DNA of 64,000 nt, taken from assembly GCA_027075325.1 (NCBI GenBank), contig JALTBN010000027.1, positions 1 to 64,000 on the forward strand, given 5' to 3'. The first letter of the stretch is position 1, and every line of letters begins with the position of its first letter. Shown here piece by piece: positions 30,468-44,236 of the stretch. A program made the position numbers and the translations under genes. The notes under the pieces are model-generated. The model made no database searches and was not told the DNA's origin. It worked only from the letters and a program-made list of their open reading frames with translations. The stretch is from Thermococcus sp. (GTDB taxonomy: Archaea; Methanobacteriota_B; Thermococci; Thermococcales; Thermococcaceae).

Positions 30468-31139
30468 TCACTGAAGCTCCATGACCTGCTCGGTGTAGGT
30501 GCTTGGAGTAGTGAACTCAATGACACCTGGGGCACCGAACTCTGGGACGACCTCACCAGTAACCTTCTTGCCTGGGGCTATTCCGTAGCCGAAGACACCG
30601 GTCTTGTCGTCGGTTCCGACCTTGACAGTCAGAACGACGATGTCACCCCCGTTGAGTGTCGGGTAGTCAGCGCTGAGGCTGGAGTCACCATCCTGAATAA
30701 CGATGATACCGTAGTTGGTCTGGTTCTTCTTAATGTTGTCCCAAGCAGCAAGGCCCGTATTAAAGATGTCAGAAACTGGGCCCTGAGTGAAAGCATCGGC
30801 GGTAGTGTTGTACATGAGAACGGCCTCAACAGTTCCGTTGCTGAGAACAAGCTTGGTGTTCTTGAGATCAATGCCAGTGCTACCGGCATTTGGTGTTATG
30901 TACACTCCCAACTGCTGGATGTATTCGAGGCTTCCGTTGGCCTTACCAACGACTCTCTCTACCTGAATTCCGCTGGCAACCTGCTGAGTGCTAGCCCTTC
31001 CGGTGCTGGAAGCCTTCTGCTGCAGGTAACCGCTCGTGTTGATGAGCACTGCCGCGGCAACTGCCGCCACTAAAACCATGGCTATAAACACTATCAGGGT
31101 GCCAATACCAACCGCACCTCTCCTGTTTCTGGCCTTCAT
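30468..31139 (-). CDS. flaB1: Archaellin FlaB1, first gene of the archaellum operon
   Basis: A 223-residue archaellin. The MKARNRRG leader is cut before [20 protein letters not shown]. The conserved block [25 protein letters not shown] and the end [11 protein letters not shown] fit the family. ATG at 31139 is preferred over the in-frame TTG three bases upstream. As the promoter-proximal copy it is the likely major filament subunit. Its promoter carries a TATA box and four upstream repeats, listed separately. Confidence 0.94.
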
Positions 31140-31187
31140 CAACCATGCACCCCCTAGGGTTTTTGCGTTAATGATTACAAGCGGCAG

Positions 31188-31195
31188 ATATAAAG
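31188..31195 (-). promoter_or_regulatory. TATA box of the archaellum operon
   Basis: The minus strand reads GGGCTTTATATCTG; CTTTATAT lies about 50 nt before the flaB1 ATG, predicting a start of transcription near 31163 and a leader of some 24 nt. A purine-rich stretch immediately upstream could serve as BRE. Confidence 0.65.
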
Positions 31196-31213
31196 CCCTT
31201 TTTTGTTCTTAGT

Positions 31214-31257
31214 TGTGTAGGTGGTTGTGTAGGTAACCGTGCAGGTGCATATGCAGG
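31214..31257 (-). repeat. Four tandem 12-bp repeats upstream of flaB1
   Basis: On the minus strand the 8-mers CCTGCATA, CCTGCACG, CCTACACA and CCTACACA begin exactly 12 bp apart (plus-strand positions 31250-31257, 31238-31245, 31226-31233, 31214-31221). The last ends about 18 bp before the TATA box. Regular spacing slightly over one helical turn suggests cooperative binding of an activator. The same core occurs before cheY (32905-32924) and at 41531-41538. Confidence 0.7.
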
Positions 31258-31259
31258 TT

Positions 31260-31270
31260 GACGGACCGTC
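31260..31270. promoter_or_regulatory. Palindrome GACGG-A-CCGTC
   Basis: A perfect 11-bp inverted repeat directly beyond the fourth 12-bp repeat in the fla/earA intergenic region. It may be an operator half-way between the divergent promoters. Nothing else supports it. Confidence 0.3.
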
Positions 31271-31399
31271 CCACATTGTGGCGATCGAAGTCATCCTGAA
31301 AGGACGACCCAAGTAAATGTGTTGGGTACTATAGCCACCCCAAACAAATTGGACAGATGTTGGTATAAATACAATTTAATACCGAAAACGTTATATACC

Positions 31400-31427
31400 A
31401 TACAACCGTTATACTACCGGGTTGTAT
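31400..31427. promoter_or_regulatory. Inverted repeat ATACAACC-N12-GGTTGTAT at the earA promoter
   Basis: A perfect 8-bp inverted repeat lies just after the TATA-like GTTATATACC (31390-31399), covering the expected transcription start of the HTH gene. The same half-sites recur as GTTGTA-N5-TACAAC at 32864-32880 before cheY. The position suggests autoregulation. Confidence 0.55.
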
Positions 31428-31500
31428 AGCTTCCAGTATAATCAGGGGCTCAAGGGATTCAGTGACTCAAGCAACGGCATGGGGGTGAGGTGGTTTGGCT

Positions 31501-31830
31501 ATGAACACTGTGATTATAGACCCGCAGGTGCTGAGGTCAATACACAGGAGTGAACTGAGGAAGAGAATACTGCTGTATCTGAACGAAATATACCCGTCCG
31601 CCACGTATCTTTCTGAGATCGCGAGGGTGGTCGGTTCTGATCCCTCCAATGTCCGCGGTGCCCTCGTCGGTCTCGGCAACCGTTACAACGGGGAAAGTTC
31701 TCTGGTGTACTTAGGTTTAGTTGAGGAGGTTAGCAACAACGGCTTCAAGTACTACAAGCTGACCGACTACGGCAGGCAGGTCGTGGAGTACCTCAGGGAG
31801 TACTACAGGTATTACAGGAAGTTCATGTGA
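31501..31830 (+). CDS. earA: Winged-helix archaellum regulator, EarA-like
   Basis: A 109-residue MarR/ArsR-like winged helix protein. The HTH is in YLSEIARVVGSDPSNVRGALVGLG and the wing in GFKYYKLTDYGRQVVEYL. Size, fold and position opposite the archaellin operon match EarA, described in Methanococcus maripaludis and Pyrococcus as an activator of fla transcription. The gene name rests on this context. ATG at 31501 has GAGGTGG upstream; the TTG at 31495 is less likely. The methyltransferase gene follows after 18 nt, so the two are probably coexpressed. Confidence 0.75.
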   Translation: MNTVIIDPQVLRSIHRSELRKRILLYLNEIYPSATYLSEIARVVGSDPSNVRGALVGLGNRYNGESSLVYLGLVEEVSNNGFKYYKLTDYGRQVVEYLREYYRYYRKFM

Positions 31831-31848
31831 GCCCAGAGGTGTCATGAC

Positions 31849-32823
31849 ATGGAAAAAGTGCCGGGGAGCGTGGGGGTAGTTGACGCTAATATAGAACACA
31901 TGATAAGGATGTCCATACTGCACCTGATACAGCTGGGAACAAAGCACGGCGTTTTCAAAGCCCTCTCCAGGGAGCCCACCCGCAGGGAAGCCCTGTACAG
32001 CATCGGTCTCCCCAACAAAAAACTACTTCTCGCTTTTTTAAGCACTCTAGAAGGAATAGGAATAGTGGAGGAAAAAAACGGCCGCCTGGCCCTTGACAGC
32101 TTTTCTTATAAACTTGACATCCCGAAGGAGCACTATGAGGCCCTGCTCCCCGGATGGGTTGCTATCCTTGAGGAGATATACCGGATGGTTGATTACGCTT
32201 TCATAACCCCCACTCATCCCCACGTTCTGATGGATTTCGACAAGGACGCCGACTTCTGGGACATAAGGATGAACACCGACTTCGCAGGGCTGTACAGAAA
32301 GGCCATCATAAAGGCCGCAGAGATTAAGAAAGGGGCCAGCGTCCTTGACCTGGGATGCGGGTCAGTTTCTCCATACGAATTCGGGAAAGCAGTTGGATAC
32401 ACCGGATTCTACATGGGGGTTGATTACTCTCCCTCCATACTGGACATAGCCAAGGCAAGGGTCGAAGGGGAAAACCTCCCCGTGGAGCTGAGGGAACTGG
32501 ACGTGAGACTCCTGCGGCCAATCAATGAGTACGATGCAGTTGTGATAAGTTATCTGTTAGAGTACGTGAAACCTGAGGACTACGGGCGCGTTCTCTTCCG
32601 GGCCCTGGAGACGCTGAAGCCGGGTGGAGTCATGGTGCTCCTCGAACCGTTCAGGGACAGGTTCAGACACGTGGAGGCCCTTGAGTTCTTCGAGAGGCTG
32701 AACAGCGACTTCAAACGCTTTCCCGCGATGGGAGAAGTAAGGGAACACCTTGAAAGCGAAGACTTTGAAATCTCAATAGAGGAGCTGGGAAGGTCAATGC
32801 TCAGGGTTTACAAGCTGCCGTGA
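31849..32823 (+). CDS. SAM-dependent methyltransferase in the motility island
   Basis: A 324-residue protein. Residues 20-110 resemble the dimerisation/winged-helix domain of O-methyltransferases (TKHGVFKALSREPTRREALYSIGL). A class I SAM domain starts at SVLDLGCGSVSPYEFGKA near residue 165. It is not CheR, which has a different N-terminal domain and motif order. It lies between earA and cheY on the same strand. A substrate cannot be read from sequence; archaellin, a signalling protein or a small molecule are possible. Confidence 0.75.
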   Translation: MEKVPGSVGVVDANIEHMIRMSILHLIQLGTKHGVFKALSREPTRREALYSIGLPNKKLLLAFLSTLEGIGIVEEKNGRLALDSFSYKLDIPKEHYEALLPGWVAILEEIYRMVDYAFITPTHPHVLMDFDKDADFWDIRMNTDFAGLYRKAIIKAAEIKKGASVLDLGCGSVSPYEFGKAVGYTGFYMGVDYSPSILDIAKARVEGENLPVELRELDVRLLRPINEYDAVVISYLLEYVKPEDYGRVLFRALETLKPGGVMVLLEPFRDRFRHVEALEFFERLNSDFKRFPAMGEVREHLESEDFEISIEELGRSMLRVYKLP

Positions 32824-32863
32824 TTGGATTTTTTCCAGAAAGGCATTAACCATGCAGCAGGTG

Positions 32864-32880
32864 GTTGTAAATTATACAAC
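32864..32880. promoter_or_regulatory. Inverted repeat GTTGTA-N5-TACAAC upstream of cheY
   Basis: A perfect 6-bp inverted repeat with 5-bp spacer, about 50 bp before the cheY TATA-like element. The half-sites equal the core of the 31400-31427 element in front of earA, though the spacer is shorter. Confidence 0.5.
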
Positions 32881-32904
32881 AAAAAGGTGATGACCCGTAG
32901 TGTA

Positions 32905-32938
32905 CCTACACAGTCACCTACACATAAGGGTTTTAGAT
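32905..32938 (+). promoter_or_regulatory. cheY promoter: two 12-bp repeats plus TATA-like box
   Basis: CCTACACA at 32905-32912 and again at 32917-32924 are 12 bp apart, the same core and period as upstream of flaB1. The TATA-like TTTTAGATAA begins at 32931. The repeats end about 6 bp before the TATA box, one 12-bp unit nearer than in the fla promoter. The predicted start is near 32960. Confidence 0.65.
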
Positions 32939-32987
32939 AACGGAGGAGAAAAAAGAAGGGGATAACCCGTTGCAGGGGTGTGGGAGA

Positions 32988-33350
32988 ATGGCGAGGATAC
33001 TGGTGGCGGATGATACACTCTTCACAAGGGTTCTTCTCAGGAAGATACTGAAGGACGCGGGCCATGAAGTGGTGGGGGAAGCCGCCACCGGCAGGGAAGC
33101 CCTGGAGAAGTACGCGGAACTTAGACCAGATGTCGTGACGCTGGATATAATCATGCCCGACATGGATGGAATAACCGCCCTCAAGGAGATTATGAAGCTC
33201 GACCCGAACGCCAGGGTTATCATGATAACCTCCGTTGACTACGAGGAAAGGGTCGTGGAGTGCATAAACGCCGGGGCGAAGGGGTATATAATCAAGCCAT
33301 TTGAGCCTGACCAGGTGATTTCAGAGATAGAGCGAGTGCTCGCAGAGTAA
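32988..33350 (+). CDS. cheY: Chemotaxis response regulator CheY
   Basis: A 120-residue single receiver domain. Acidic pair D8/D9, phosphoacceptor D53 (TLDIIMPDMDG), Thr81/Ser82 in MITSV and Lys103 in IIKPF are all present. Phosphorylated archaeal CheY reaches the motor through CheF and the FlaC/D ring. ATG at 32988 follows GGTGTGGGAG; the ORF extension upstream is not conserved. cheA begins 124 nt downstream, where most archaeal clusters would have cheB. Confidence 0.95.
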   Translation: MARILVADDTLFTRVLLRKILKDAGHEVVGEAATGREALEKYAELRPDVVTLDIIMPDMDGITALKEIMKLDPNARVIMITSVDYEERVVECINAGAKGYIIKPFEPDQVISEIERVLAE

Positions 33351-33474: not shown

Positions 33475-35703
33475 ATGGAAGAGTACCTGGCCGACTTCAT
33501 AGCAGAGATGAAGGAAAAAGCCGCGGAAATGAGGGAGCTATTCCAGAGACTGAAGTCCTCCGAAAGCCAGGACGAGAGGGCCGAGATTCTTGAGGAGATG
33601 CTCCGCTGCGCCCACACCATGAAGGGCTCCTCCTCCCTGGCCAGGTTTCAAAGACTGACCCAGGCCACCCACTGGCTTGAAACGATTCTTGATCTGATCA
33701 TACAGGGGAAACTCCAGCTAAACGACGGCACCCTTTCGGTGGTGGAGGGCTTCATCGATGCCACCAGCACGTTGGTGGCTTCGATTGAGGGGACTGGGCA
33801 TGAAGCTGATGTGAACCTCAGCTATCTGATAGCAAAGGCAACGCAGCTGGTGATGGACAGCAGGAAAAGTGAGGGGGTTTTTCAGAACATCAGACTCACG
33901 GAGAAGGGTAAACCTCAACACATTAAAGTCAGGTTCGACAGCGTTCCCGATAAAATTCCCAACTGGCTTTTCTCACTCCTCTCAACACTGAACAGACTTG
34001 GCGAGGTTATCGGCTCAAACCCCGATGTTGAGAAGGTGATAAGGGGAAAGGAGGTCCTCGCGGGAGGGAAAATAGAACTGACCATCAGAAGCCCCAGAGA
34101 TTCAAATGAGATAGCGGAGGAGCTCAGAAAGTCACCCGGGGTCAGGGAGGTAGAGGTGCTTGATGATGGAGACGGGGAAAAGGCCTACACCGTCGAGGTT
34201 GTTCTTGGGGAGGAGGTTCCTCTTAAGGCGGCACGCGCTCTCCTCATCCTCCAAAGCCTCAAAAGGGCCGGGGAGGTAATCAGCACGGAGCCGGGTAGGG
34301 AAGAGGTAGAGAAGGGGATTCTACTGCAGGGCAGGGTTTTCCGCTCCGCTATAAAAACGGACAGAAAACCCGAGGAGCTGGAAGCGGCGGTAAAAAGACA
34401 TCACGGGGTTGTTGATGTCAGAATTTCCCCGGCGGAGGAGATGGAGCTGCAAAAGGCAGGGAAACACCTGAAAACGCCAGCCATAGGGGGCGAGAGCACA
34501 AAAGCCTCTTACACACACCGGGAGGGGAGCCCCCTGAGAAAAACCGTGCGCGTTGATGTGGATGACCTCGACAGACTCCTTGGTTCAGTTGAGGAACTCA
34601 TGATAGTATCGGACTGGATGGAAAAGGTGGCGATATCAGAGAAGTGCAGGGAGTGCCCGCAGCTCGGAAGCATACGGGCAAAGCTCGCTGAAGGATTGAA
34701 AAACCTCAGGAAGGTCGTCTTCAGGCTCAGGACGGTCCCACTCAAAAGGGTCGTGGAGGACATGATCCCCGCCCTTCTGGAGCTGGCGGAAGCGCTGGGA
34801 AAAGAGGTCGACATCAGGGTTGAGGGGCCGGAACTGAGGGTTGATAGACACGTTGTGGAGGCACTATGGGAGGCTTTCATCCACATACTTCGGAACGCCA
34901 TCGTCCACGGCATCGAGCCGCCGGAGGAAAGGGAGAGGGCCGGAAAGCCCAGGCGCGGAACAGTTTCCATCTCGATAAACCCCAACGGAGACTACGTTGA
35001 GATAGAGATCAGCGACGATGGAAGGGGTATAAACGTTGAGGAGATAAAGCGGCGCGCGGTCAAAGCGGGCATCATACGCGAGGAAGAAGCGAAGGGTATG
35101 TCACACGATGAAGCGTTGAACTTGATCTTCGAGGGGGGAATAAGCACCGAGACCACTGTTTCGGAGAACGCCGGAAGGGGGATAGGGCTTAACGTTGTGA
35201 GGGAGGTTGTTAAGTCACTCCAGGGGATTATAGAAGTTAGGAGCAAGCCCGGGGAGGGGGCCAGCTTTATCATTCGGGTTCCGTTCGAGGTATCCATCCT
35301 GAAGGCGTACATCCTGGAAATAGAAGGACAGCGGTATGCGTTACCTGCCGTGGGAATTGCGGGAGAGGTGAGCTTCGACAGAAAGGCGATCAGAAAGCTT
35401 GGAAGGAACTATCTTGTTATGGTGGGGGGAGACCTTCTGCCCGCTGTTCTTCTCCATGGGGTTCTTGAACCTACAGCCTTTCCAGGGGAAAAGCTAGAGG
35501 GCGTTGTAGTCGAAACTGGGAAAGGAAAAATCGCCCTCCTCGCAGATAGGGTGGAGGACAAGAGAACGATTGTTGTTAAGTCGCTCCGCGGGGTAGCCCT
35601 TTCCAGGGAGGACAGAAAGCTTTACTCAGGGGTTACTGTTATAGGGGGGAAGGAGATAGTCCCCGTGGTGAATCTGGGGGAAATCATCAGGGGGGTGTAC
35701 TGA
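33475..35703 (+). CDS. cheA: Chemotaxis histidine kinase CheA (divergent)
   Basis: A 742-residue kinase. The P1 HPt domain has His47 in CAHTMKGSSS. Residues about 145-325 hold two similar ferredoxin-like modules (VRFDSVPDKIPNW..., TVEVVLGEEVPLKA...), probably P2-type. P3 dimerisation, the P4 ATPase (N box HILRNAIVHGIE, G1 ISDDGRGIN, G2 NAGRGIGLN) and the P5 CheW-like domain follow in order. Two departures from typical CheA are seen: the N box has NAIVHG instead of N-x-x-DHG, and RMVP is RTVP. Start is ATG behind GGGGGAG. Confidence 0.9.
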   Translation: MEEYLADFIAEMKEKAAEMRELFQRLKSSESQDERAEILEEMLRCAHTMKGSSSLARFQRLTQATHWLETILDLIIQGKLQLNDGTLSVVEGFIDATSTLVASIEGTGHEADVNLSYLIAKATQLVMDSRKSEGVFQNIRLTEKGKPQHIKVRFDSVPDKIPNWLFSLLSTLNRLGEVIGSNPDVEKVIRGKEVLAGGKIELTIRSPRDSNEIAEELRKSPGVREVEVLDDGDGEKAYTVEVVLGEEVPLKAARALLILQSLKRAGEVISTEPGREEVEKGILLQGRVFRSAIKTDRKPEELEAAVKRHHGVVDVRISPAEEMELQKAGKHLKTPAIGGESTKASYTHREGSPLRKTVRVDVDDLDRLLGSVEELMIVSDWMEKVAISEKCRECPQLGSIRAKLAEGLKNLRKVVFRLRTVPLKRVVEDMIPALLELAEALGKEVDIRVEGPELRVDRHVVEALWEAFIHILRNAIVHGIEPPEERERAGKPRRGTVSISINPNGDYVEIEISDDGRGINVEEIKRRAVKAGIIREEEAKGMSHDEALNLIFEGGISTETTVSENAGRGIGLNVVREVVKSLQGIIEVRSKPGEGASFIIRVPFEVSILKAYILEIEGQRYALPAVGIAGEVSFDRKAIRKLGRNYLVMVGGDLLPAVLLHGVLEPTAFPGEKLEGVVVETGKGKIALLADRVEDKRTIVVKSLRGVALSREDRKLYSGVTVIGGKEIVPVVNLGEIIRGVY

Positions 35704-35704
35704 G

Positions 35705-36319
35705 TTGGAGGGGATGGATAAAATCGATATGATTCTAAGGCTCATCCTCTGGAGGGTTGTTGAGAGGATAAGCCCGGATGGAAAGGTGTTCCCCCGCCCC
35801 TGGGGGGTTTATATGACGAGTTTTGAACGCCTGCGCCGGGAACTTGGGGGGAAGTCGATTACGGCTATCGTGCTCCTGGGAAGGAAACCAAAAGCCCTCA
35901 TGGTGTTCAACGTCACCAGACCTCCGGAAATCCTGAAGGAACGCATAGCGAAGGGACTGGAGTATGGCGATAGAGAAGAGCTGTTTAAATCCCTTGTAAT
36001 TGAGGGGCTGAACATAGCTTCAGGGCTGTTCGCAAGCAGGCTCTCAAAGGTTGCAGGGGAGGATCTTCTTCCCAGTACCCCCAGAGTTTTAAAGCGGCCG
36101 GAGGAGATCAGGACGTTTCTGTGTTACATAGGGCAGTGTGGGGAGGAGTTTCCAGTGTTTTCAGCGAGAATAGCGGATGAAAACGGGGGTTACGTGAGGA
36201 TGTACCTAAGCCTATCAGAAGAGCTTGTGGAGAAGCTCATGGCAGTGGATAACGACAGAGTACTCCGTGGGTACACAGAACGCCCTCTCCACAGGAGGTG
36301 GATTCTAAATGGGGGCTGA
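35705..36319 (+). CDS. CheC/CheX-like protein (probable CheY phosphatase)
   Basis: A 204-residue protein. VIEGLNIASGLFASRLSK (near residue 98) fits the E-x-x-N active-site helix of CheC/CheX/FliY phosphatases, and LPSTPRVL nearby fits their conserved PPTP-like segment. Only one clear active-site helix is visible, so it resembles CheX or a half-degenerate CheC. The expected role is dephosphorylation of CheY-P. The start is TTG at 35705 behind GGGGGGTG, or ATG at 35714. It begins 1 nt after cheA and overlaps cheF by 11 nt. Confidence 0.55.
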   Translation: MEGMDKIDMILRLILWRVVERISPDGKVFPRPWGVYMTSFERLRRELGGKSITAIVLLGRKPKALMVFNVTRPPEILKERIAKGLEYGDREELFKSLVIEGLNIASGLFASRLSKVAGEDLLPSTPRVLKRPEEIRTFLCYIGQCGEEFPVFSARIADENGGYVRMYLSLSEELVEKLMAVDNDRVLRGYTERPLHRRWILNGG

Positions 36320-37289
36320 GACGGGAAAAGGCATGGCGAGGGTAAAGTGCCTCATCCTCCACCCAGGCGCGGAAGTACCATCCCGTTTGCTGGACTGCGG
36401 GGTAAAGCTCATGCATGAGGGGTTCACGCTTGACTACGGAAAAGGAGGTGATTCCTTCAGGTTCTCTGCAATCTCTGACCTGGGGTTCCGCCCACCTCAG
36501 CTGGAAGTTCTCAGCGGGCTTGAAGAGGTATTCGCCATTGGGATGAACGACGGGCGGATCGTCATCCTGGGCCGCGGGGAAAACCCCATTCTTTACTCCA
36601 GGGACGAATTCGAGGGAACAGTTCACTCGATCTTCACCGCGCTCCTGAACGGGGCCACCGTCCATTTCCTCGACTCCGGAAGGAAGGGCTCCATCAGAGT
36701 ACTCCTCTCAAGGGTCAATCTCAGGGGGAACGCGTTCGTCGTGGACGAGGAGTTCAAACCCGTCCTCAGCTTTTCTGCGCTGAGCAGTGCGGAGCTGGAG
36801 GTTCAGGAAGGGCCTTCCGGAGAGAAGAGAGCGATTTGGAAGGTTAAAACAGTAGAGCACGGGGCAAAGCCGGCCTCAAGCTTCAAGCTGTGGATTCCCG
36901 GAAAGAAGACCCGGCTCTTCCTCCTGAGGTATCTCCTGCGCTACGGTGCAGGGGGCCCTGTTTTCAGCCTAGCCGGGGAGTTCCCGGAGCTCTCTGAGGA
37001 GATAAGCACGGTCAGCCCAGATGAGCTTACCGGGAGGGAAAGGGACGTTCTGATGGCTTTGCTGTCAGGAGTTGATCCCCTGGAGGTTCCGGCCATCCTC
37101 AGGATGGGGGCCGCTGAAGTGGAGGAGGTTTACGATTCCCTCATGGAGAAGGGGCTCCTGAGACTCATCAGTGTCAGAAAGGTGGTTGCCCCCACCGAGC
37201 TGGCCGGATCAATTGGCCTGGAAAACTTTGATAAGGAAGAAAACAGGAATAATGCGGAGGAATACCTCAAAAAAACCGGAGGTGAGTGA
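36309..37289 (+). CDS. cheF: Archaeal chemotaxis adaptor CheF (DUF439)
   Basis: A 326-residue protein. The C-terminal third (LTGRERDVLMALLSGVDPL...MEKGLLRLISVRK) is the helix-turn-helix-like segment typical of CheF. The N-terminal two thirds are a PH-like domain. In Halobacterium and Methanococcus CheF links phosphorylated CheY to the archaellum ring proteins and is required for switching. ATG at 36309 has GGAGGTGG 7 nt upstream; ATG at 36333 is an alternative. Confidence 0.75.
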   Translation: MGAETGKGMARVKCLILHPGAEVPSRLLDCGVKLMHEGFTLDYGKGGDSFRFSAISDLGFRPPQLEVLSGLEEVFAIGMNDGRIVILGRGENPILYSRDEFEGTVHSIFTALLNGATVHFLDSGRKGSIRVLLSRVNLRGNAFVVDEEFKPVLSFSALSSAELEVQEGPSGEKRAIWKVKTVEHGAKPASSFKLWIPGKKTRLFLLRYLLRYGAGGPVFSLAGEFPELSEEISTVSPDELTGRERDVLMALLSGVDPLEVPAILRMGAAEVEEVYDSLMEKGLLRLISVRKVVAPTELAGSIGLENFDKEENRNNAEEYLKKTGGE

Positions 37290-37290
37290 G

Positions 37291-38598
37291 GTGAAGGTTC
37301 GCTTGATTCTCATATCAATAATTCTCATGGGGCTTGTATATCCCGTGTTCCAGATGGGAAACGTGGGAGCTGAGAAAAGCCCGGTTCTCTTCAGGGGTTC
37401 CCTCTGTGACGGAGTGCAGTATCAGAAGAGCATCGAGGCCGTCGCCATTAAAAACGGAACGGTTTATGCCGCCTGCGACTACAGAATGGTGGCGGGAAAG
37501 GAACTGATCGGAGTGTACTACCTCGGGGAGATGGGAGCGTACTCGATGAACGGGAGCAAACTGTGGAGCAACGGTTCCGGCTACGTCGTTAAAATCTTCC
37601 CCCTTGGAAAAACCGTGATAGACGGTAGCCTTGGAGGTTTCGTCATCTTCAATGGCTCGGGGAAGATAATCGAGACAGTCCCAACCCTCAACAAGCTGTA
37701 CGACTTTGCCGTCAACGGAAGCAGGGTGTACGCGGTCGACGGGGACGTTTGGGTTTCAAACGGAAGCTTCACAACAACCGGTCACCTTTACATCGGAAGA
37801 ATCCTCCCCAACGGCACGATGGAGCTAAACGGGACTGGAACCCTAACGTTGAACTTCTCATCCCTCCTGGACAGGGTAGCACTCGGGCCTGTGGTATACG
37901 TTGGCTCGGGTATGCCCCCAGGATACGCTTTCAGCAGGCAGTTTGGAGGGGTTTCCGGAGTTTCGTATGATGGAAGGATCCTCTGGAACGTGAGCACCGG
38001 GGAATGGGTCAGGGACGTCGTGGTGTGGAACGAAAAAGCGGTAGCGGGAACGGACGACAACTCCGGAAACGGTAATATCATAATAATAGATAAGAATGGG
38101 AACGTCCTGAAAAACGTCAGCACCTTTGCGGTCCAGGACATGGCGGTGGAGGGGGACATCCTATACGTAGCTGGAGTGTCAGGGGATGGAAAGGGCAGGG
38201 TTGCCGCATACGAACTGAAAAACATGAAGAAGCTCTGGGAGGTTGAGATGCCCTACCGCGCCAAGGTTATTGCGCTCGCCGGCGGAAAGCTGGCCGTCGG
38301 GGTCGGCGAGTTCAAGAGCGAGAAAGAAGGAAATACCACCAAGGTTTACAGCGAGGGGGGGCTCTACATCCTAAACCCGTCCAGCGGAAAAGTTGAGTGG
38401 AAAGACCTGACGATGGGCTACGTCAGGAGCCTGGCCACAGAGGGGAACATCCTCGTCGCGGGCACGGGCAGCCAGTACTTCTACGTCCTCGACGTCAGTA
38501 AAACGGGGAGCCGGAGCGGAATCTGCGGGCCCGCACTCCTCGTCCTCCTGGTGGTTTTAATAGGAGGATTAGTGAGGGGAGGTGGAAGGTTTGGCTGA
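37291..38598 (+). CDS. Secreted, membrane-anchored beta-propeller (PQQ-like) protein
   Basis: A 435-residue protein. A signal peptide (VRLILISIILMGLVYPVF) is followed by some seven or eight repeats of a PQQ/quinoprotein-like propeller, for example LWSNGSGYVVKIFPLG, ILWNVSTGEWVRDVVV and KVEWKDLTMGYVRSLA. There are many N-glycosylation sequons. The C-terminus is a membrane helix (PALLVLLVVLIGGLV). It should be displayed outside the cell. GTG at 37291 follows GGAGGTGAG directly after the cheF stop, so it belongs to the che transcript. Confidence 0.75.
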   Translation: MKVRLILISIILMGLVYPVFQMGNVGAEKSPVLFRGSLCDGVQYQKSIEAVAIKNGTVYAACDYRMVAGKELIGVYYLGEMGAYSMNGSKLWSNGSGYVVKIFPLGKTVIDGSLGGFVIFNGSGKIIETVPTLNKLYDFAVNGSRVYAVDGDVWVSNGSFTTTGHLYIGRILPNGTMELNGTGTLTLNFSSLLDRVALGPVVYVGSGMPPGYAFSRQFGGVSGVSYDGRILWNVSTGEWVRDVVVWNEKAVAGTDDNSGNGNIIIIDKNGNVLKNVSTFAVQDMAVEGDILYVAGVSGDGKGRVAAYELKNMKKLWEVEMPYRAKVIALAGGKLAVGVGEFKSEKEGNTTKVYSEGGLYILNPSSGKVEWKDLTMGYVRSLATEGNILVAGTGSQYFYVLDVSKTGSRSGICGPALLVLLVVLIGGLVRGGGRFG

Positions 38599-39397
38599 GG
38601 AAGAACTTGACCTGAGGGAGCGCCTGGCAACCGGTGAGAATCTGGAGGAGATTATCATCCGCTCCGGATACGATGAGGAACTGCTGAAGGAAATAATAAA
38701 CTACCTCGACGACGACCTCTGGACTGTGCAGAAGAACGCTCTGATCGTGCTTATGGAAGTCCTCGAAGAACATGAGGAACTCTACGAGCCACTCCTGCGC
38801 AAGCTTCTCGTTATGATACGAAAGAGCGAGGCCGTTCCTTTAACCCTTGAGATAGCGAAGACGGTTGGAAAGCTTTCAAAGCTGAAGCCCGACCTCGTTA
38901 AAGGGGCTGCCCCGATAATATTCGCGAACTACCGCATAGGAGACCCGAAGATAAAGATAAACATGGCCTACGTAATCGAGGAGATAATGAGGGAGAACCC
39001 TGCGCTCCTTGGAAACATAGTCAAAGAGATAGCCAGTATGCTCAGTTCGCCAAACGAAATGGACAGGCTCGCGGCATTGAACTTTATCTCGGCCCTTGGC
39101 GAAAACAGCGGTAAGTACGTTACTCCTTTCCTCCCACGGCTTCTAACACTTCTTTACGATAAGAATGAGCTTGTGAGGGCCAGTGCCGTTGAGAGCCTGG
39201 CGGAGATAGCCGCAAACAACAGGAGGTTCAGGAAGATAATAAAGGCAAAACTGGGCGAACTCAACGACAGGAGTGAACTCGTAATGAAGAACGTCAGGGA
39301 AGGGCTCATGAAGATCTCCCTGGCGGAGGCCGCGGAGAAGGAAGGATCAGAAGGGACAGAAAAGACCGAATCAAAGACCGAGGCTGGTTCAGCCTGA
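38591..39397 (+). CDS. HEAT-repeat protein in the che operon
   Basis: A 268-residue alpha-solenoid built of HEAT-like repeats (for example WTVQKNALIVLMEVLEEHEE, DRLAALNFISALGENSGKYV, ELVRASAVESLAEIAANNRR). A short Glu/Thr-rich tail follows. It is a scaffold-type fold without catalytic motifs. TTG at 38591 is chosen because GGGGAGGTGG ends 5 nt upstream; GTG at 38582 overlaps that site. The gene overlaps the propeller gene and ends the operon, convergent with RNase P component 4. Confidence 0.75.
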   Translation: MAEEELDLRERLATGENLEEIIIRSGYDEELLKEIINYLDDDLWTVQKNALIVLMEVLEEHEELYEPLLRKLLVMIRKSEAVPLTLEIAKTVGKLSKLKPDLVKGAAPIIFANYRIGDPKIKINMAYVIEEIMRENPALLGNIVKEIASMLSSPNEMDRLAALNFISALGENSGKYVTPFLPRLLTLLYDKNELVRASAVESLAEIAANNRRFRKIIKAKLGELNDRSELVMKNVREGLMKISLAEAAEKEGSEGTEKTESKTEAGSA

Positions 39398-43462: not shown

Positions 43463-44236
43463 TCACTCCCCGTAGAACTCCTTCTCGAAGACGTCTATCC
43501 CGACTTCCAAGCTTTCCAGCCAGTCGAGGAACTTCCCGACGTGCTCGTCCCTGAAGATCGCCCCGTGCTGCGGCGCTATGACCTTCGGTCTCAGCTTTCT
43601 GACGTGTTTAACCCAGGCCCTCAGCGCCTTTGTAGAACTCATGTAGCGTCTGTGGAAGCCCTCCATGTGCCGGAGGTGGTCGTCGAAGTCCTCAACGAAG
43701 AGGTACCACTCATCCTTTGAAAACGCCGCCGCTCCAATGTCCGAGCTGAAGAGGATTCCGCTCTTCTCGTCGTAGAAGGAGAAGTTGCCTGGACTGTGGA
43801 GGTAGTGGCTGGGGACTGCTTTGATGGTCGACTTCCCCAGTTTAAAGTCAGTCCCCTTGTCCGGGATTCCAATGGTCCTTCCCGCGCTGAGAACCGCGAG
43901 GTGTGGAATGAAGCGAACCCAGAGGTCAGAGATAACGAGTTTCGCCAGCGGTGCATACTCGAACCAGAGGTTCAGCCCGGCCACAACATCTGGATCCTGG
44001 TGCGAGTACATGAGGTACTTTATCTGGGTCGGAGGAACTATCGAGGAGACGTTTTTAAGAACCCTGGAGAAGACGAAGAACCCGCCAGGCTCTATCAGAG
44101 CCGCCTCGCTTCCGTCAACGACCAGATACTGGTTCGTGAGAATCCCCTTCTCGTCCTCGCTTTCCTCTATCCCAAGCCAGAAAACTTTGTGCTCCCCGTC
44201 GTCGTAGAGCGGGTAGCTGTTCATGTTCCTTATCAT
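43463..44236 (-). CDS. ODP-type metallo-beta-lactamase fold protein (flavodiiron-like, no flavodoxin domain)
   Basis: A 257-residue protein. The diiron ligand pattern of oxygen-binding diiron proteins is seen: YSHQDPDVV near residue 78 (H-x-D/E-x-D), HSPGNFSFYD near 147, SSDIGAAAF near 165 and PQHGAIF near 225. Flavodiiron proteins have this domain followed by flavodoxin, which is absent. Stand-alone members may sense or reduce O2/NO or act in redox signalling. GGGGTG precedes ATG. The gene overlaps the downstream end of its operon neighbour by 4 nt. Confidence 0.82.
   Translation of the reverse strand: MIRNMNSYPLYDDGEHKVFWLGIEESEDEKGILTNQYLVVDGSEAALIEPGGFFVFSRVLKNVSSIVPPTQIKYLMYSHQDPDVVAGLNLWFEYAPLAKLVISDLWVRFIPHLAVLSAGRTIGIPDKGTDFKLGKSTIKAVPSHYLHSPGNFSFYDEKSGILFSSDIGAAAFSKDEWYLFVEDFDDHLRHMEGFHRRYMSSTKALRAWVKHVRKLRPKVIAPQHGAIFRDEHVGKFLDWLESLEVGIDVFEKEFYGE

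Follow-up and report, generated by a model that had tools for sequence, protein, structure and literature searches.

The closest described counterpart of the elements analyzed here is the operator of EarA in the promoters of archaellum (arl or fla) genes. EarA binds to and activates the arl promoter of M. maripaludis, where the operator has four sites with the sequence TACATA, and P. furiosus cannot form archaella without it. Transcription of arl requires both EarA and the EarA sites, and this need is abolished when the BRE is altered (PMC5512572). In the arlB0 promoters of Thermococcales, which have one to three sites, the motif A(C/G)(C/G)TACA(T/C) was identified by motif search (PMC10665913); section 3.3 of that paper covers arl promoters only, and for species with both archaella and chemotaxis the available text does not settle the set of EarA targets, proposing the transcriptome of an EarA knockout as later work.

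A 23-bp motif was found with MEME by Villain et al. 2021 (PMC8643681) in six promoters of T. kodakarensis (fla, che, TK0156, TK2147, TK1139 and TK1605), and nowhere else in the genome did it score highly; in that paper its function is termed unclear, with DNA topology as a suggestion. The genes carrying it, which are the same as those discussed below, rise together with gyrase in that study and fall together in histone mutants (PMC8155482). TK2147, TK0168, TK0546 and TK1804 are likewise depleted in the histone mutants, and according to PMC8155482 the data point to no obvious transcription-factor candidate. The available description of the 23-bp motif is restricted to one species and gives no binding protein, no 12-bp unit structure and no TATA register. 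EarA has no occurrence in the main texts of PMC8155482 and PMC8643681, and hence was not considered in either. The reads of the gyrase study were re-used in PMC10665913, in the available text of which the terms '23 bp' and 'regulon' are absent. TK0036, which is earA by gene order, and the flagellin gene TK0038 are on the pyruvate, not the sulfur, list of most-read genes, as judged from all but rows 9-11 of Table 1 of PMC4247193.

One regulator for both archaellum and chemotaxis genes is described in Haloferax volcanii, namely CsmR (PMC13286277), which according to the available text is not similar to EarA in sequence or structure and acts in haloarchaea, which are without EarA. Ptr2 and TFB-RF1 are other regulators, likened here by description only: these activators have upstream sites adjoining the BRE and act on weak promoters by recruiting TBP or TFB (PMC5512572, PMC10665913). 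A search of the open-licence literature found no link between EarA and che genes in print. What is already known, then, is a motif common to fla and che in one species; the link to EarA, the spread of the operator and its geometry are added here.

Operators of the archaellum and chemotaxis operons

The window, i.e. the whole 64,000-nt stretch of Thermococcus DNA analyzed, contains the following features.

31210..31257, minus strand: fla (arl) operator, four tandem 12-bp units with cores CTGCA, CTGCA, CTACA and CTACA (direct reading and pattern search)
31195..31209, minus strand: A-rich stretch AGAACAAAAAAGGGC from the last fla unit to TATA (direct reading)
31188..31194, minus strand: flaB1 TATA box TTTATAT (direct reading)
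30468..31142, minus strand: flaB1, first archaellin (PF01917; ORF listing and Pfam; start codon uncertain)
31501..31830, plus strand: EarA, winged-helix archaellum regulator (PF07381, E 1.6e-33)
31849..32823, plus strand: methyltransferase gene in the earA-cheY interval (PF13649, E 8.9e-14)
32905..32928, plus strand: cheY operator, two 12-bp units CCTACACAGTCA / CCTACACATAAG (direct reading and pattern search; kept in 8/8 genomes with this operon type)
32931..32939, plus strand: cheY TATA-like element TTTTAGATA, 13 nt past the last core (direct reading)
32988..33350, plus strand: cheY (PF00072, E 6.2e-30)
33475..35703, plus strand: cheA, with Hpt, P2, HATPase and CheW-like domains (Pfam and relatives)
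35705..36319, plus strand: CheC/CheX-like protein, 204 aa (profile of seven relatives against PDB)
36309..37289, plus strand: CheF, CheY-to-archaellum-motor adaptor, 326 aa (profile of eight relatives against PDB)

The preliminary description of this DNA had noted four units spaced by 12 bp ahead of the flaB1 TATA box and two units with the same core and period ahead of that of cheY, and direct reading bears out both, at 31257-31210 (CCTGCATATGCA / CCTGCACGGTTA / CCTACACAACCA / CCTACACAACTA on the minus strand, from 31257 down) and at 32905-32928. The noted difference of one 12-bp unit in the offset from TATA is also correct: the core closest to TATA is 26 nt away from it at flaB1 (hand count), as in 38 of 63 flaB frames of relatives, vs 13 nt at cheY. 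The flaB1 value agrees with the fixed distance upstream of the BRE that is published for arlB0, and cheY is one 12-bp rung nearer. The protein between the two operons, then called EarA-like, is confirmed as EarA by its Pfam match.

Both cheY cores (CCTACAC) fit the published (C/G)(C/G)TACA(T/C), as do two of the flaB1 cores (CCTACAC), the other two being the one-letter variant CCTGCA. By analogy, AGAACAAAAAAGGGC is a putative weak BRE like those reported from arl promoters (PMC5512572, PMC10665913). The fla site resembles the EarA arl operator in its core, tandem repeats and position upstream of BRE/TATA, with the EarA gene adjoining arl, and the archaellum half of the finding is this known operator. 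In contrast to it, the repeat also stands ahead of che, MCP, ODP-MCP and AAA genes. At che, MCP and AAA genes it is one unit nearer to TATA, and at ODP-MCP it is reversed.

The pattern CCTRCA-N6-CCTRCA has four matches in the window, all within the fla and cheY sites (mean of 0.02 and maximum of one in 100 dinucleotide shuffles of the window). The own 2.3-Mb genome has eight matches at six places and none to the reversed pattern: three in the fla promoter, one at cheY, one intergenic (C27:135122) and three inside reading frames (C27:201912, C43:229435 and C60:73036), which were set aside as coding hits.

In relatives, the distal fla unit is often palindromic (CCTACATATGTAGG; for example, L105, L120, L124, L131 and L144), one direct and one inverted unit having common bases. 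The sequence of this unit hints at binding as a dimer or in two ways.

The che operon of the window has the order cheY - cheA - CheC/X-like - cheF, so that CheA, CheY and CheF of the canonical archaeal chemotaxis system are all present. The CheC/CheX-like protein alone has no Pfam match, and its profile finds CheC (1xkr, E 3.8e-6) and CheX (3hzh, E 0.0012) in PDB; CheF also has no Pfam match, and its profile finds CheF (7ovp, E 1.6e-52; 7od9, E 1.4e-12). MCP domains (PF00015) were found neither in the own genome nor in G019, G021 and G033, which are single contigs, nor in G056; G051 has one match. No separate CheW was found in 6/6 genomes with the window-type operon, where a CheW-like domain occurs only within CheA; a separate CheW is present in G026, used for comparison. 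Among MCP-free archaea, very few encode CheA (PMC9680633). Genes of beta-propeller (PQQ-like) and HEAT-repeat proteins adjoin the che operon (window 37171-39397). Similar reading frames adjoin earA (L114 6592-8682) in G024, which we take to be T. kodakarensis KOD1 and whose che operon is elsewhere.

EarA (PF07381) was found in 72/94 genomes of the family and in 39 of the 40 with CheA, the exception being 69% complete. Its AlphaFold2 model has an order of helices and beta-hairpin compatible with a winged helix at low confidence (mean pLDDT 51.8, which is too low for a fold search), and the sequence has no relative in PDB (best E 0.7); weak NCBIfam matches were left out. As regards autoregulation by the fla/che repeat, sites with matrix score of at least 10 (see below) occur upstream of earA in only 2/61 frames, with no TATA evident past them. 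A different inverted repeat, ATACAACC ... GGTTGTAT, lies upstream of earA at 31380-31436 of the window near possible TATA elements, and may be the gene's own control site.

Conservation of the operator in relatives

For comparison across the family, we trained a matrix on units of flaB promoters only and scanned about 310 bp around each frame start in 81 regions. The training units were picked with the strict pattern CTACAY-N6-CTACAY, which had been chosen with the che sites already in view, and the genomes compared are relatives, not independent samples.

CheA is encoded in 40/94 genomes of the family and is of two kinds. The window kind (41-47% identical; eight genomes including the own) adjoins earA; the other (30-38% identical) belongs to an operon led by cheR and followed by cheY-cheB-cheA-cheC-cheC-cheD (G026), where gene names other than that of CheA were assigned by eye. 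The matrix scores at least 14 upstream of 22/24 CheR frames and 5/7 CheY frames of the own type, at least 10 at 7/7 of the latter, and gives no matches at second and later che genes. With genes located by TBLASTN, a site precedes the first che gene in 27/28 genomes with the cheR-led type (score at least 14.4; not found at cheR of G093) and cheY in 8/8 genomes with the own type (score 10.5-19.7), 34 of the 40 CheA-positive genomes being covered (all but G002, G010, G011, G036, G064 and G085). Among 963 other frames a score of at least 14 was reached once, and this was the fla promoter of G005.

Thus, orthologous fla and che promoters retain the repeat, and in the regions scanned it is not common at unrelated ones; the opposite outcomes had been named in the preliminary description as refuting a shared site. 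As the gene content of the two che operons is different and the operator is nearly all that their promoters have in common, common descent of the promoter alone is unlikely. As for the proposal of a cooperative activator site shared by fla and che, the core equals the published EarA core at both operons; binding of EarA at che and its cooperativity we infer.

Register to the TATA element

The distance from the last core to TATA is 13 nt in 7/7 CheY promoters of the own type and in 4/4 AAA promoters, and 14 nt in 4/6 MCP promoters, the other two being without a distance. For 22 CheR frames it is 13 nt (15), 14 nt (two) or 25 nt (five). For 63 flaB frames it is 26 nt (38), 38 nt (14), 25 nt (one) or 17 nt (four), with six lacking a distance. 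Two overlapping loci (L148 and L149) stand for G002 in the flaB counts, and in the matrix scan four flaB frames scoring near 11 resemble coding hits within the operon. Save for the four flaB frames at 17 nt, the distances correspond to rungs with a spacing of about 12 nt (13-14, 25-26 and 38 nt), che, MCP and AAA promoters mostly using the first rung and arl promoters the second or third. The shift by one unit seen at cheY is therefore general.

Such a fixed register would be explained by head-to-tail contact between protomers that is also made with TFB; as 12 bp is not one helical turn, neighboring protomers would be rotated relative to each other around the DNA. A ladder of this kind would restrict how an archaeal activator meets TFB, and natural promoters carry the operator at different rungs.

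Operators ahead of MCP, ODP-MCP and AAA genes

A family-wide search was performed with CTACAY-N6-CTACAY, for which the list of matches is complete for 15 genomes. Sites away from arl recur among the matches listed, and forty stretches around such sites were fetched. They contain MCP genes (L212, L215, L216, L220 and L221), genes for a 420-residue MCP (L193-L196, L207 and L222), an ODP-MCP operon adjoining V-ATPase-like genes, and an AAA ATPase gene (L197-L199). Coding hits were also among the stretches fetched, and the strict list includes conserved coding places such as a radical-SAM-like frame, named by eye (L202, L203, L209, L210 and L218), which were rejected.

Seventy three of 243 strict sites lie at most 2.6 kb upstream of an MCP domain (151 domains in 33 genomes), compared to 0/53 sites of the reversed control pattern; this overlay leaves out the own genome as well as 33 PF00015 matches that had E > 1e-10, being second fragments or weak. 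The 170 strict sites without an MCP include those at arl, own-type cheY and AAA genes as well as coding hits, and 78/151 MCP domains have no strict site. In 51/73 MCP-linked sites the units are reversed relative to the MCP gene, including all 16 that are the che leader site in the interval between divergent cheR and MCP genes. A strict site was found for the soluble MCP of the ODP operon in 23/26 cases and a weaker one (13.5-18.8) in the other three, ODP being confirmed by Pfam in three ODP-MCP loci (L186, L200 and L224). The units have the opposite direction in the ODP-MCP promoters, and are also reversed at the 420-residue MCP. A second protein of the ODP family is encoded in the window at 43463-44236 on the minus strand (PF19583, E 6.4e-74), with no tandem site nearby among the matches listed.

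The AAA gene has a site in 9/9 closest relatives (L245-L253; scores 19.4-24.1) and in 0/21 more distant ones. No site was found at AAA relatives in genome group g3, which we take to be Pyrococcus, or at the relative in the own genome (L266, 57% identical), which is treated as a paralogue; the own genome has three more AAA matches, left out of this comparison. G050 is without EarA (96% complete, 90 contigs) and keeps the AAA site with a score of 24.1.

Genome-wide, CheA-positive genomes have 6.92 strict sites per genome vs 1.69 for the control. The corresponding numbers are 2.94 vs 2.00 in EarA-positive CheA-negative genomes and 3.23 vs 1.86 in EarA-negative ones, so that the former show no excess over the latter; most of these EarA-positive CheA-negative genomes have the fla site, often with variant cores.

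The ODP-MCP and AAA promoters were first picked by the motif, ahead of the comparison with PMC8155482. For comparison with the 23-bp motif, TK1139 was set to G024:995832-996920 from its AAA ATPase annotation and interpolation of gene numbers, and TK0156, TK0631 and TK1605-1606 were placed in G024 by product and order. The site scores in G024 are 16.4 for cheR, 22.1 for the MCP taken as TK0156, 22.3 for ODP-MCP, 20.4 for AAA and 18.4 for fla; hence five of the six promoters with the 23-bp motif, all but TK2147, are taken as found. The reverse complement of the motif, TTTGTGTABSTGBTTATGTAGGT, is ACCTACATAAVCASVTACACAAA, i.e. two 12-bp EarA units. The fla promoter of the window has at most one mismatch to a 20-letter part of this reverse complement; the cheY site of the window is not among the matches with up to three mismatches.

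EarA and alternative readings

Given the directly observed common motif, its conservation and specificity, the fixed TATA register, and the agreement with published co-regulation in T. kodakarensis, the archaellum and chemosensory genes of Thermococcales are probably coactivated by EarA. Encoded between the fla and che operons, EarA would bind the CTACA units with one protomer on each 12 bp, head to tail, up to the edge of the TFB/TBP site, and the row would act on a weak promoter element by recruiting TFB. Besides the archaellum and che operons, this operator would drive several MCP genes, the ODP-MCP operon and the AAA ATPase gene; EarA binding outside the archaellum operon, cooperativity and the TFB contact are inferred. 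The presence of one operator at arl, che, MCP, ODP-MCP and AAA genes implies that EarA would activate the whole program of swimming and steering in Thermococcales. Candidate EarA targets are accordingly arl, both types of che operon, MCPs, the ODP-MCP operon and the AAA ATPase, and a known activator would be tied to the 23-bp motif of T. kodakarensis (PMC8643681) and to the effect of histone mutations (PMC8155482). Several observations speak against this reading: the reversed ODP-MCP units, which a single orientation-bound contact with TFB does not explain, and those at the 420-residue MCP; the AAA site of G050, a genome without EarA; the AAA relatives in Pyrococcus, which have no site; the MCP domains without a strict site, about half of the total; and the EarA-positive CheA-negative genomes, whose strict sites show no excess.

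More tentatively, and with somewhat less than even confidence, EarA may be the master activator of motility and chemosensing, forming a head-to-tail row on a TATA-locked 12-bp ladder, with consensus units on the first rung (che, MCP, AAA), the second or the third (arl), and bridging empty rungs to TFB. If so, the strong responses of T. kodakarensis fla, che, TK0156, TK1139 and TK1605 to histones and gyrase would be due to EarA action rather than to direct effects on chromatin.

It is unlikely that a different regulator recognizes nearly the same repeat at the che, MCP, ODP and AAA sites, with EarA acting at the archaellum promoter only. EarA binding is in print for arl promoters only, G050 keeps the AAA site without EarA, and both the offset (13-14 nt vs 26 or 38 nt) and the orientation at ODP-MCP are unlike those of the arl promoter; but the core, the 12-bp period and the TATA register in 12-bp steps are all the same, two data sets of T. 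kodakarensis show co-regulation of these genes with arl (PMC8155482, PMC8643681), and EarA accompanies CheA in every genome but one, itself incomplete.

Much less probable is the proposal of PMC8643681 that the repeat is an element of DNA topology, or of nucleosome positioning, which renders these promoters sensitive to supercoiling and histones with no dedicated activator. The T. kodakarensis genes do respond to histone mutation (PMC8155482) and to gyrase (PMC8643681), in two studies whose main texts leave EarA out of consideration; however, the core is that of the EarA site known from the genetics of M. maripaludis and the arlB0 motif search in Thermococcales (PMC5512572, PMC10665913), and a topology element need not hold the letters CTACA in a 12-bp register to TATA. 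Finally, chance resemblance or functionless inheritance of the che repeats, which the short core and the mere two units at cheY might suggest, is very improbable, as four window matches against 0.02 expected reject a chance origin, two unrelated che operon types carry the repeat, and cores and spacing are kept while the linkers vary.

Weaker candidate sites

With EarA as the activator, genes encoding DUF5658 and DUF835 proteins are weaker target candidates. The intergenic site at C27:135122 precedes the gene of a small DUF5658 membrane protein. Around it (L011 3124-3148), direct and inverted units overlap in the interval between the gene of the DUF5658-like protein and a divergent gene, and the site is at the same place in G000, G021, G024 and G028 (L011, L201, L217 and L229). 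Three in-phase units followed by a TATA element lie ahead of a DUF835 gene of the own genome (C27:215989-216024; L282 1487-1522), and this site is conserved in G030 (L281), that is, in two genomes in all.
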